Assembly (NCBI RefSeq): GCF_002975435.1
Contig: NZ_PCPT01000006.1
Coordinates: 62,001 to 126,000, forward strand
Direction: 5' to 3'
From: Arthrobacter sp. MYb227
GTDB taxonomy: Bacteria > Actinomycetota > Actinomycetes > Actinomycetales > Micrococcaceae
DNA length: 64,000 nt
Below the pieces are notes generated by a model. That model worked only from the letters and a program-made list of their open reading frames with translations, was not told the DNA's origin and did no database searches. This document shows, one piece after another, positions 55,067 through 57,148 of this stretch. The first letter of the stretch is position 1; each line of letters starts with the position of its first letter. Both the position numbers and the translations under genes were made by a program.

Positions 55067-55807
55067 ATGGGAGTAGATTGGACCGCTCTCGAAGAGGCGA
55101 TACGGGTGTCGGCTCTTCGCCAGGCGGAAGAAATTATTGACCGTCACCCGAACGAGGTTTTCTATGCGATAGCCCTTGACGGGGTCACCGCCGATGAAAC
55201 CGATCATATTGACCTTCCGGTTCTTGCCCTCAATACGATCCAGGCTCTCGAGCGGATCGCTAAAGAGGAAGAGGACGAAGAAATCATCCCCATCGAGGAT
55301 TTCGATGAGGACGAAGAAGAAGGCTACGAAGAACGCCCCGATGCCGATGACGATGGTTCGGATAGAGACCAACATCAGGATTCGCCACGTGGCGAGGACG
55401 ATGACGAGGAATCGGATCAAGACGACGACGAGGACGACATTGACCTCGACGAAGTCCTGCGAGATTTAGAAGCCATGAATCGTGCCCAAGAGGAAGGATT
55501 CTACTCATCAAAGTGGAATCCACCGGATTGGCATTGGTGTTCCATCGAGCTCTTCGACGAATCGGCAAGTGACTTGTGGTCTCAGGCCTTGACCGGTGTT
55601 GCCAAACATCATGGGTGGGAAACAACTAATCGTCTTTACTATGAAATGTTGATCCGAGTCACCGATTCGCTACGCCACATCCTCGCCACGGGACGCAATG
55701 CGGACTTGGTCGTTTATCTTTCGGATGATGAGCATGCAGACGAAATTCTGCGCAGGTGCCTCACCGAAGATCAACTAGCCAAACATTTCCCGGAGCTTGC
55801 CCACTAG
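55067..55807 (+). CDS. DUF4303-like protein with acidic insertion
   Basis: The 246-residue protein starts like DUF4303 (EAIRVSALRQAEEIIDRHPNEVFYAIALDG) and ends like it (WETTNRLYYEMLIRVTDSLRHI). Residues about 75-135 are an Asp/Glu-rich low-complexity insert (DDDEESDQDDDEDDIDLDE and others). Function is unknown for the family. The mRNA seems leaderless: TAGGCT lies about 6 bases before the ATG. Its stop overlaps the convergent anti-sigma gene by 4 bases. Confidence 0.75.
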   Translation: MGVDWTALEEAIRVSALRQAEEIIDRHPNEVFYAIALDGVTADETDHIDLPVLALNTIQALERIAKEEEDEEIIPIEDFDEDEEEGYEERPDADDDGSDRDQHQDSPRGEDDDEESDQDDDEDDIDLDEVLRDLEAMNRAQEEGFYSSKWNPPDWHWCSIELFDESASDLWSQALTGVAKHHGWETTNRLYYEMLIRVTDSLRHILATGRNADLVVYLSDDEHADEILRRCLTEDQLAKHFPELAH

Positions 55808-56511
55808 TCTTTCGATAAGCGCGCATCGAGCTTTACTAGGACCTTGGCCTCGGGATCACGCAACTCTAGACTCCTGATTTCTTTCAAGGGTGTGGGAGTT
55901 GCTCCGGTAAGTTTGGTGCTTCCCGTTGTTGTCGCTTGCCATGATCCGGCTTTTTCGGCTGCCCCTTGACTGTCGATAACCCAGAGCGAAAGCAGACCAG
56001 AAGTGGGAAGCTTGTTCCCCCTGAACTGCACTTCGGTTCCCCACGCTTTCGCGTTCATTCCTATGTTGATCTGGGTACCAATATCGTTAACCGCGGAGTA
56101 GCTGACATCCGGTCTGGCCTCCGGGGCAAATATTGGGGCAATGAAAACGCCTAAAACTACCGATGCCGCAATGCTTCCAAACGCTATGGCACCTAGGGCG
56201 GCACGTTTACGCCGTCGCACCGATGCCAGCTTGGAGAGTAAGGAGATGGTTCCCGCAGGCTCTTGGAATGATTCTTGGCTTGGCGCAGCGGAAATCAGTT
56301 CTGGCTCGGGTATCAGTGCTAGGTGTGCTTCCTTGGTGTCTAGGGTATTCAGTATTGAAGGGATAGTTGAAGTCGCGTGTAGTTCTACCTGACATTGCGC
56401 ACACGAGGCAAGATGTTCTTCAAAAATCTGGCGTTCGGAATCATGCAGACCCCCGAGGAGATAAGCGCCCAATAATATATGTGTGTCATTGGCTCCAGTA
56501 TTTTCTTTCAC
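55804..56511 (-). CDS. anti-sigma factor (RskA-type)
   Basis: The 235-residue membrane protein has an N-terminal zinc-finger-like ASD motif (ERQIFEEHLASCAQC, with a HxxxCxxC arrangement), one transmembrane helix near residue 115 (ALGAIAFGSIAASVVLGVFIA) and an extracytoplasmic RskA/DUF2345-like C-terminal domain. It overlaps the sigma gene by 4 bases. It holds the ECF factor inactive until a signal causes proteolysis, by family knowledge. Confidence 0.88.
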   Translation of the reverse strand: MKENTGANDTHILLGAYLLGGLHDSERQIFEEHLASCAQCQVELHATSTIPSILNTLDTKEAHLALIPEPELISAAPSQESFQEPAGTISLLSKLASVRRRKRAALGAIAFGSIAASVVLGVFIAPIFAPEARPDVSYSAVNDIGTQINIGMNAKAWGTEVQFRGNKLPTSGLLSLWVIDSQGAAEKAGSWQATTTGSTKLTGATPTPLKEIRSLELRDPEAKVLVKLDARLSKD

Positions 56512-57041
56512 CGTTCGATCCCCATTTCTTCGAGTGTTTGGCGTAGCGACCGAATCGCATAGTAGGCGCGAGATTTAACTGTTCCCTCGGGAACTCCGAG
56601 CATGATTGATGTTTGGGCCACAGTGGCGCCCAAATAGTGTAATTGCCATACCACCTCGCGATGGTCCGGCGACAGCGACTTGAGAGCCTCTTCCAGTAGT
56701 ACCTTGTCCAAAACGGCATCGAAGCTTGTCGTATTCGACGTGCTTTCCTGCATGGAATCGCTGAGACTTGTGGCATTGATTCTGCTGGAGGCACGCCGGT
56801 ACCTATCAATGAGAACGTTCCGGGCGGTGGCATAAAGGTAGCTGCGTAGCGAACCGGTAATGTGCGGTGCCGCCTGCCATGCCTTGATCACAGTTTCTTG
56901 CAAGATATCTTCGGCAGCATCCCGATCATCGGCCACCCGATTGAGAAAGCGCCGCAGCTCCGGGGCATGTAACCGATAGATATCGGATACAACGCTGGCA
57001 TCCAATGGCACCTTGGCTCCATCTTTTTCGTTTGAGGACAT
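56508..57041 (-). CDS. ECF-subfamily RNA polymerase sigma factor
   Basis: The 177-residue sigma factor shows region 2 (DRDAAEDILQETVIKAWQA and RSYLYATARNVLIDRYRR) and region 4 (LSPDHREVVWQLHYLGATVAQTSIMLGVPEGTVKSRAYYAIRSL), with no region 1 or 3. This is the SigK/SigL-like group linked to RskA-type anti-sigma factors. A matching promoter (TGAACC-N16-CGTC) lies just upstream on the same strand, which suggests autoregulation. Confidence 0.92.
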   Translation of the reverse strand: MSSNEKDGAKVPLDASVVSDIYRLHAPELRRFLNRVADDRDAAEDILQETVIKAWQAAPHITGSLRSYLYATARNVLIDRYRRASSRINATSLSDSMQESTSNTTSFDAVLDKVLLEEALKSLSPDHREVVWQLHYLGATVAQTSIMLGVPEGTVKSRAYYAIRSLRQTLEEMGIER

Positions 57042-57057: not shown

Positions 57058-57083
57058 GACGTATGAGAGCTGAGAGTGGTTCA
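57058..57083 (-). promoter_or_regulatory. ECF-type promoter for the sigma/anti-sigma operon
   Basis: Reading the minus strand, TGAACC (57083-57078) and CGTC (57061-57058) are separated by exactly 16 bases, the -35 and -10 pattern of the SigK/SigL-type ECF group. The start point would fall about 11 bases before the sigma ATG. The same spacing and boxes recur on the plus strand at 57123-57148. Confidence 0.75.
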
Positions 57084-57122
57084 CTGCTGTTTAGAGTATG
57101 GGGCAGAAAATTAGGTTTTCAA

Positions 57123-57148
57123 TGAACCAAGGGCCAACTATTTGCGTC
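57123..57148 (+). promoter_or_regulatory. ECF-type promoter for the lipoprotein gene
   Basis: TGAACC (57123-57128) is followed after 16 bases by CGTC (57145-57148), the same two boxes and spacing as the sigma-operon promoter, in opposite orientation. The lipoprotein ATG is about 50 bases downstream. Control by the neighbouring sigma factor is the simplest reading. Confidence 0.75.

Follow-up and report, generated by a model that had tools for sequence, protein, structure and literature searches.

The best solved relative of both regulatory proteins of the locus described here is the SigL/RslA pair of Mycobacterium tuberculosis (Mtb). As far as the openly accessible parts of the published accounts show, the two systems have in common a sigma/anti-sigma operon, an HxxxCxxC anti-sigma factor and the reading of the sigma promoter by its own product, which for our locus is predicted. 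Mtb RNA polymerase with SigL initiates at the sigL promoter in vitro (PMC6372665), RslA binds SigL and upon oxidation loses both its zinc and its affinity (PMC2877774), and the promoters named in these two sources are those of sigL, pks10 and Rv1139c (PMC6372665, PMC2877774). Lipoproteins of the family found at our locus have been connected with other sigma factors. The accessible text on Sinorhizobium meliloti describes an ECF26 sigma factor, RpoE1/EcfR1, that autoregulates its operon and controls the secreted lipoprotein 15 SMc01418 (PMC3511301, PMC6180224); the system is active with sulfite-generating compounds and in stationary phase, and the authors suggest a possible role of SMc01418 in the control of the sigma factor and point out that its homologues are often encoded with such sigma factors, also in distant bacteria (PMC3511301). 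That system has a GGAAT-type -35, a sulfite-linked signal and the lipoprotein gene in first position of the sigma operon (PMC6180224), whereas our locus has a divergent lipoprotein gene and a TGAACC -35. For Streptomyces coelicolor, SCO0930 is among the listed members of the SigU regulon (PMC6295645); our lipoprotein matches the NCBIfam SCO0930 lipoprotein model with 107.6 bits, under its cut-off of 275, and the sigma factor is a different one. Mtb SigK and RskA, with MPT70 and MPT83, likewise represent an ECF sigma factor and a membrane anti-sigma factor controlling surface proteins (PMC7509140), with another sigma factor and other targets, SigK being a weaker match (4nqw, E 1.2e-5). ECF control of the Lipoprotein_15 family is thus precedented by RpoE1-SMc01418 (PMC3511301) and SigU-SCO0930 (PMC6295645). 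We found no description of a SigL-type sigma factor together with Lipoprotein_15 in the open-access literature searched. None of sigL, pks10 and Rv1139c is known to be a Lipoprotein_15 gene. As far as the open-access literature shows, a SigL-type sigma factor with mirrored promoters for a Lipoprotein_15 gene would be new, ECF control itself being known.

We analysed a 64-kb stretch of DNA from Arthrobacter sp. MYb227 (64,000 nucleotides; the window). Judged by sequence, the locus encodes a SigL-like ECF sigma factor (56508..57011, minus strand), a membrane-anchored, zinc-type, RslA-like anti-sigma factor (55804..56511, minus strand) and, as the predicted target, a lipoprotein of the Lipoprotein_15 family (PF03640; 57198..57731, plus strand). 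The sigma ORF is readable from ATG 57041 (177 aa), and only the Sigma70_r2 and region-4 models match it, as for an ECF (group IV) sigma factor. We take GTG 57011 as the probable start (167 aa), since the VPLD... beginning at this codon, written MPLD... at the same residue in other genera, and the upstream GGAG (57017-57020) are conserved in relatives. The best solved relative of this protein is Mtb SigL (6dv9_F, E 1.7e-31), the next other full-length chain being 5uxx_A at E 5.5e-10; the closest NCBIfam model is PRK09645, presumably the SigL model, with 156.1 bits, below the curated cut-off of 202. The anti-sigma gene, which has a zf-HC2 match, overlaps the sigma stop codon by 4 nt (GTGA), and its product matches Mtb RslA over residues 7-78 (3hug_B, E 3.6e-6); the membrane helix was read by eye. 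The predicted HxxxCxxC zinc motif is HLASCAQC at residue 33 (56392..56415, minus strand), placing a putative zinc-type anti-sigma factor inside the operon of the sigma factor, as in SigL/RslA. HxxxCxxC recurs in the anti-sigma factor of 78/80 named relatives, which are the best 80 of 360 by sigma similarity; for the remaining 2 no ORF was readable. Compared by eye with the quoted consensus, HILLGAYLLGGL and HDSERQIFEEHL of our anti-sigma factor agree with the ECF19/AS19-1 anti-sigma helix motifs HTLAGAYALDAL and LDDERAAFERHL at 7/12 positions each. For the lipoprotein, ATG 57198 is a better-spaced start than 57189. Its PF03640 match (E 1.7e-30; 104.7 bits against a cut-off of 24.4) falls into two repeats with YxFxxD-like motifs, and the protein has a lipobox, LLSGC (by eye), and one CTGxC cysteine pair. 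The sequence-only reading had termed the lipoprotein COG4315-type, an assignment that we examined through the PF03640 profile only. This gene is the sole place in the genome with PF03640 matches, one for each repeat.

Between the two transcription units lie two mirrored promoter-like sites. The predicted ECF promoter of the sigma/anti-sigma operon (57058..57083, minus strand) consists of a -35 box TGAACC (57078-57083), a spacer of 16 nt and a -10 box CGTC (57058-57061), and that of the lipoprotein gene (57123..57148, plus strand) of the same -35 box (57123-57128), a spacer of 16 nt and the same -10 box (57145-57148). TGAACC is also the -35 of the Mtb SigL promoter. The -35 boxes face inward with 39 bp between them, and the -10 boxes face outward toward the two genes. 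The sequence-only reading had placed TGAACC-N16-CGTC once on each strand, before the sigma operon and before the lipoprotein gene, and both copies are indeed exact (0 mismatches); its observation that boxes and spacing are identical extends further than first noted, as the sequence common to both strands is TGAACC-N16-CGTCTTA. Its intergenic gap of 147 bp is correct for starts at 57041 and 57189 and does not hold for the conserved starts GTG 57011 and ATG 57198, which would give 186 bp. There is no further exact TGAACC-N16-CGTC in the 64-kb window. Allowing up to one mismatch yields 6 matches, two of which are the pair itself; shuffled sequence has 4.6 on average, and since 32/100 shuffles also reached 6 or more, only the exact pair stands out. 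A naive estimate with uniform bases puts the chance of one exact 10-base match per strand in 147 bp at about 2e-8, and conservation is the better evidence. By analogy with Mtb SigL numbering, transcription is predicted to start at about 57047 (sigma operon) and 57159 (lipoprotein), which would make the leaders about 36 and 39 nt long.

We compared the locus across related bacteria, where all counts come from related, non-independent genomes. Our genus sample held 15 genomes, 11 of them (the window's own included) with a close ortholog of the sigma factor and 4 with only distant matches. Both promoters are present at all 11 loci, with 39-41 bp between the -35 boxes; at one locus (L016) the sigma-side box reads TGAACT, and two (L024 and L025) are nearly identical in sequence. 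At family level, the best 80 of the 360 relatives are not a random sample, having been ranked by sigma similarity, and their genomes are related. Among these 80 named loci TGAAC[CT]-N16/17-CGTN is found at 80/80 on the sigma side and 79/80 on the lipoprotein side (L336 is without it), and all 80 have a divergent lipoprotein gene. Of the 159 promoters, 157 have a 16-nt spacer and 2 a 17-nt spacer, a count that admitted these two lengths only, with one locus alone needing anything else. The fourth base of the -10 is C in 70/80 promoters on the sigma side and 76/79 on the lipoprotein side. The distance between the -35 boxes ranges from 2 to 78 bp, and we discarded a fixed promoter-to-promoter distance as a functional feature: it is nearly true in the genus and false across the family. 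In L283, L304, L313, L324 and others the -35 boxes stand just 2-3 bp apart, so that two polymerases could hardly bind together and the promoters may be mutually exclusive.

Counting instead 33 distinct family loci (window included), both promoters with a spacer of 16/17 are present in 29, the exceptions being L050, L053, L064 and L153; a divergent lipoprotein gene lies in the stretch examined in 29/33, with L051 (at a contig edge), L053, L057 and L064 as exceptions. L057, from family genome G075, keeps both mirrored promoters, and no Lipoprotein_15 gene was found in that genome. Another family genome, G145, has the sigma factor and is without both the lipoprotein and the second promoter. A survey of 197 family genomes found the sigma factor in 37 (cut-off E <= 1e-40) and the lipoprotein in 72. 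The lipoprotein was present in 35/37 genomes with the sigma factor versus 37/160 others (Fisher p ~2e-16, uncorrected for relatedness), and the sigma cut-off misses some weaker sigma factors, which works against the association. Since both promoters are kept in the genus and family loci, their mirrored arrangement is not due to chance.

Beyond the family, we surveyed 394 genomes of the class with cut-offs of E <= 1e-30 for the sigma factor (183 genomes) and E <= 1e-8 for the lipoprotein (133 genomes); the lipoprotein occurred in 105/183 genomes with the sigma factor versus 28/211 without, again non-independent counts. TGAAC[CTA]-N16/17-CGTN stands within 350 bp upstream of the sigma gene at 66/83 distinct loci from outside the family, and at 97/116 with the family included, the 116 being best-scoring matches plus hand-picked loci, one or a few per genus. 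We also inspected 118 lipoprotein loci (58 search matches and 60 chosen, one with just 157 bp upstream), before which two control motifs were found at 0/118. The motif with a 16/17 spacer precedes the lipoprotein gene at 30/31 loci in the family, at 25/32 loci (21/25 genera) in other genomes bearing the sigma factor and at 3/18 loci (3/10 genera) in genomes scored as sigma-less. The large genus g64, whose proteins of this family are SCO0930-like, is a clear counter-example, with 0/37 lipoprotein loci carrying the motif with a 16/17 spacer (one has a 15-bp spacer), so the lipoprotein is not always under such a promoter. At 17 of the 25 positive loci from other sigma-bearing genomes no SigL-like sigma gene lies in the 0.9-1.5 kb examined upstream, and some of these may still adjoin one. 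L141, L145 and L091 have a lipoprotein gene with its own promoter downstream of the anti-sigma gene, and other genera have single, unmirrored copies before sigma and before lipoprotein genes. As the motif is kept before lipoprotein genes in these other arrangements, the link between sigma factor and lipoprotein survives changes in gene order. L070 and L075 carry a third site, TGAACC-CGTA, before another secreted-protein-like ORF beyond the lipoprotein, and the regulon may thus be larger in some lineages. At L117 mirrored CGTG promoters face a different divergent secreted-looking protein, with no lipoprotein in the stretch examined, so mirrored promoters are not confined to Lipoprotein_15 genes.

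One genome of the genus sample is without the sigma operon. G010 (L183) shares with the window the gene order DUF4303, lipoprotein, purH, and has no sigma operon between the first two and no close sigma factor elsewhere in the genome; the promoter TGAAC[CT]-CGT, looked for upstream of its lipoprotein gene, is absent. This is the one exception among the family lipoprotein loci mentioned above, and the lipoprotein is presumably expressible otherwise, given that here it occurs without the motif. G003, also without the sigma factor, has a partial lipoprotein match only (positions 48-115 of 115). The DUF4303 gene (55067-55807, plus strand), which contains a long Asp/Glu-rich stretch, adjoins the locus in the window and also in G010.

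The -10 box provides a further point of comparison with Mtb. There, G is the base preferred by SigL at '-11' (T-G-N-C/A-A-G), and the accessible text connects this choice with the L3 loop of the sigma factor (PMC6372665). The window has C at this position on both sides, and its L3 loop, QAAPHITGSLR in region 2 (56844..56876, minus strand), has 11 residues versus 14 in Mtb SigL (the latter counted by hand). Across the 89 of 116 sigma loci that could be scored (27 were dropped because loop or promoter was unreadable), C was found in 29/43 loci with loops of 12 residues or fewer versus 1/46 with 14 or more. The members of a second group, L101, L110, L115 and L121, have 12-residue loops ending in SIR together with C. 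In the set of 80 named family loci, a TGSLR loop ending goes with C in 60/65 and T in 5/65, and an NGSFR ending with G in 3/5 and C in 2/5; the loop ending alone therefore does not fix the -10 base. The base appears to vary together with the L3 loop, with exceptions both ways, and because the relation comes largely from one clade we regard it as suggestive, a lead and not a code.

We consider it about 90% probable that the mirrored sites are divergent ECF promoters read by the adjacent SigL-like sigma factor, one serving its own operon and the other the lipoprotein gene. Autoregulation and control of the divergent lipoprotein, as the sequence-only reading had suggested, are favoured by the joint conservation of the two sites, by the kept spacer and free gap, by the absence in G010 and by the presence of this promoter type, in other genera, before lipoprotein genes with no sigma gene seen beside them. 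It is improbable, in our estimation, that they are ECF promoters read mainly by another ECF sigma factor while the adjacent one has other targets. Cross-reading by a paralog is possible, because many ECF sigma factors share the GAAC core and the genome holds 10 other sigma-type matches (E 0.001 or better), and the 3/18 motif-bearing loci in genomes scored as sigma-less fit such a reading; yet the promoter accompanies this particular sigma factor over many genera, is missing where its operon is missing, in G010, and has a -10 base that tracks this sigma factor's L3 loop, with the exceptions given. An equally slim chance attaches to a circuit in which only the sigma operon is autoregulated, the box on the lipoprotein side being a functionless duplicate and a housekeeping promoter driving the lipoprotein. 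The motif-free lipoprotein genes of G010 and g64 and the box without a lipoprotein in G075 would all agree with this, but conservation is equally good for the box on either side (79/80 for the lipoprotein, 80/80 for the sigma operon), and the lipoprotein-side box is found again before lipoprotein genes that are arranged otherwise. Least credible is a single palindromic operator for a dimeric transcription factor, with incidental CGTC boxes, which we rejected even though GGTTCA-N-TGAACC is itself an inverted repeat and its halves lie 2-8 bp apart in part of the relatives, because the CGT box keeps its distance of 16/17 bp and the -35 boxes stand anywhere from 2 to 78 bp apart, as two promoters and not one operator would, and because other genera have the unmirrored single copies.

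With two divergent promoters read by the adjacent sigma factor, regulation would proceed as follows. At rest, the membrane-bound zinc anti-sigma factor would sequester the sigma factor, both being supplied at a low level, probably from a weak basal promoter. A signal, which we infer to be of a cell-envelope or thiol/oxidant kind, would release the sigma factor. Once freed, it would transcribe its own operon, a positive feedback with the anti-sigma factor made alongside as a brake, and would also transcribe the surface lipoprotein from the second promoter. Such a mechanism would be conventional ECF autoregulation with a neighbouring target, and we regard the circuit as real but conventional since many related bacteria retain this pairing. 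For the basal supply, TTGAAA-N16-CATACT (57095..57122, minus strand) is a candidate housekeeping promoter directed toward the sigma operon. In an alignment of 10 sequences (the window and 9 relatives, from two genera) conservation is highest in the two ECF promoters and in a central ATACT, which is invariant in 10/10, and the -35 of the match is not conserved; the element may weakly be read as a possible basal promoter or as a factor site. The CATACT block stands 11 nt before the -35 of the sigma-side promoter.

A scan of the whole genome with the motif, proposed by the sequence-only reading as a way to the rest of the regulon, gave no informative targets: the 10-base motif has 14 matches versus 13 for a backwards control, so that the motif alone is uninformative elsewhere in the genome. 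A stricter pattern has 5 matches, 2 of them at the locus, versus 10 for its control. Elsewhere than at the locus there are 12 exact matches, of which 10 are internal to ORFs of at least 192 aa and L002 is ambiguous; the last, L005, continues as CGTCC and sits between ORFs, the next one beginning about 110 bp further on. The proposal that the lipoprotein is the one target stays plausible in the light of the 10/12 matches inside ORFs, and unproven; we neither claim nor exclude further targets.

Regarding the lipoprotein itself, C37, C41, W45, Y23, D28, Y84, D89 and W104 are among the residues that are invariant in the domain. AlphaFold2 predicted the domain from 37 rows with a pLDDT of 96.7. By sequence search it has no PDB relative (best E 0.47), and Foldseek with the predicted domain returned no relative (best E 1.6); a second look at the Foldseek hits gave no Z of 2 or more among 321 chains, and the fold pointed to no function. 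Absence of a structural match for the predicted domain is not proof of a new fold. A more doubtful idea is that the lipoprotein, made from its mirrored promoter, serves as a sensor part as well as a target: on the outer side of the membrane, next to the anti-sigma factor's outer domain, it would read the thiol/disulfide or sulfur-oxidant state through the invariant CxxxC and so close the feedback loop; the promoters would also be mutually exclusive in relatives whose -35 boxes stand as little as 2 bp apart, with sensor and sigma factor made in alternation. If this were true, the loop would be found with at least two different ECF sigma factors, the SigL-like one and RpoE1 of Sinorhizobium.

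Related bacteria supply natural material for following up the locus: a series of loci whose key -10 base varies along with the L3 loop of the sigma factor, exceptions included, and a case, G010, in which the sigma operon and the target promoter are both missing. The finding would supply Lipoprotein_15, a surface family annotated as of unknown function, with a conserved and testable regulator, and its moderate interest lies in this link to a defined sigma factor.
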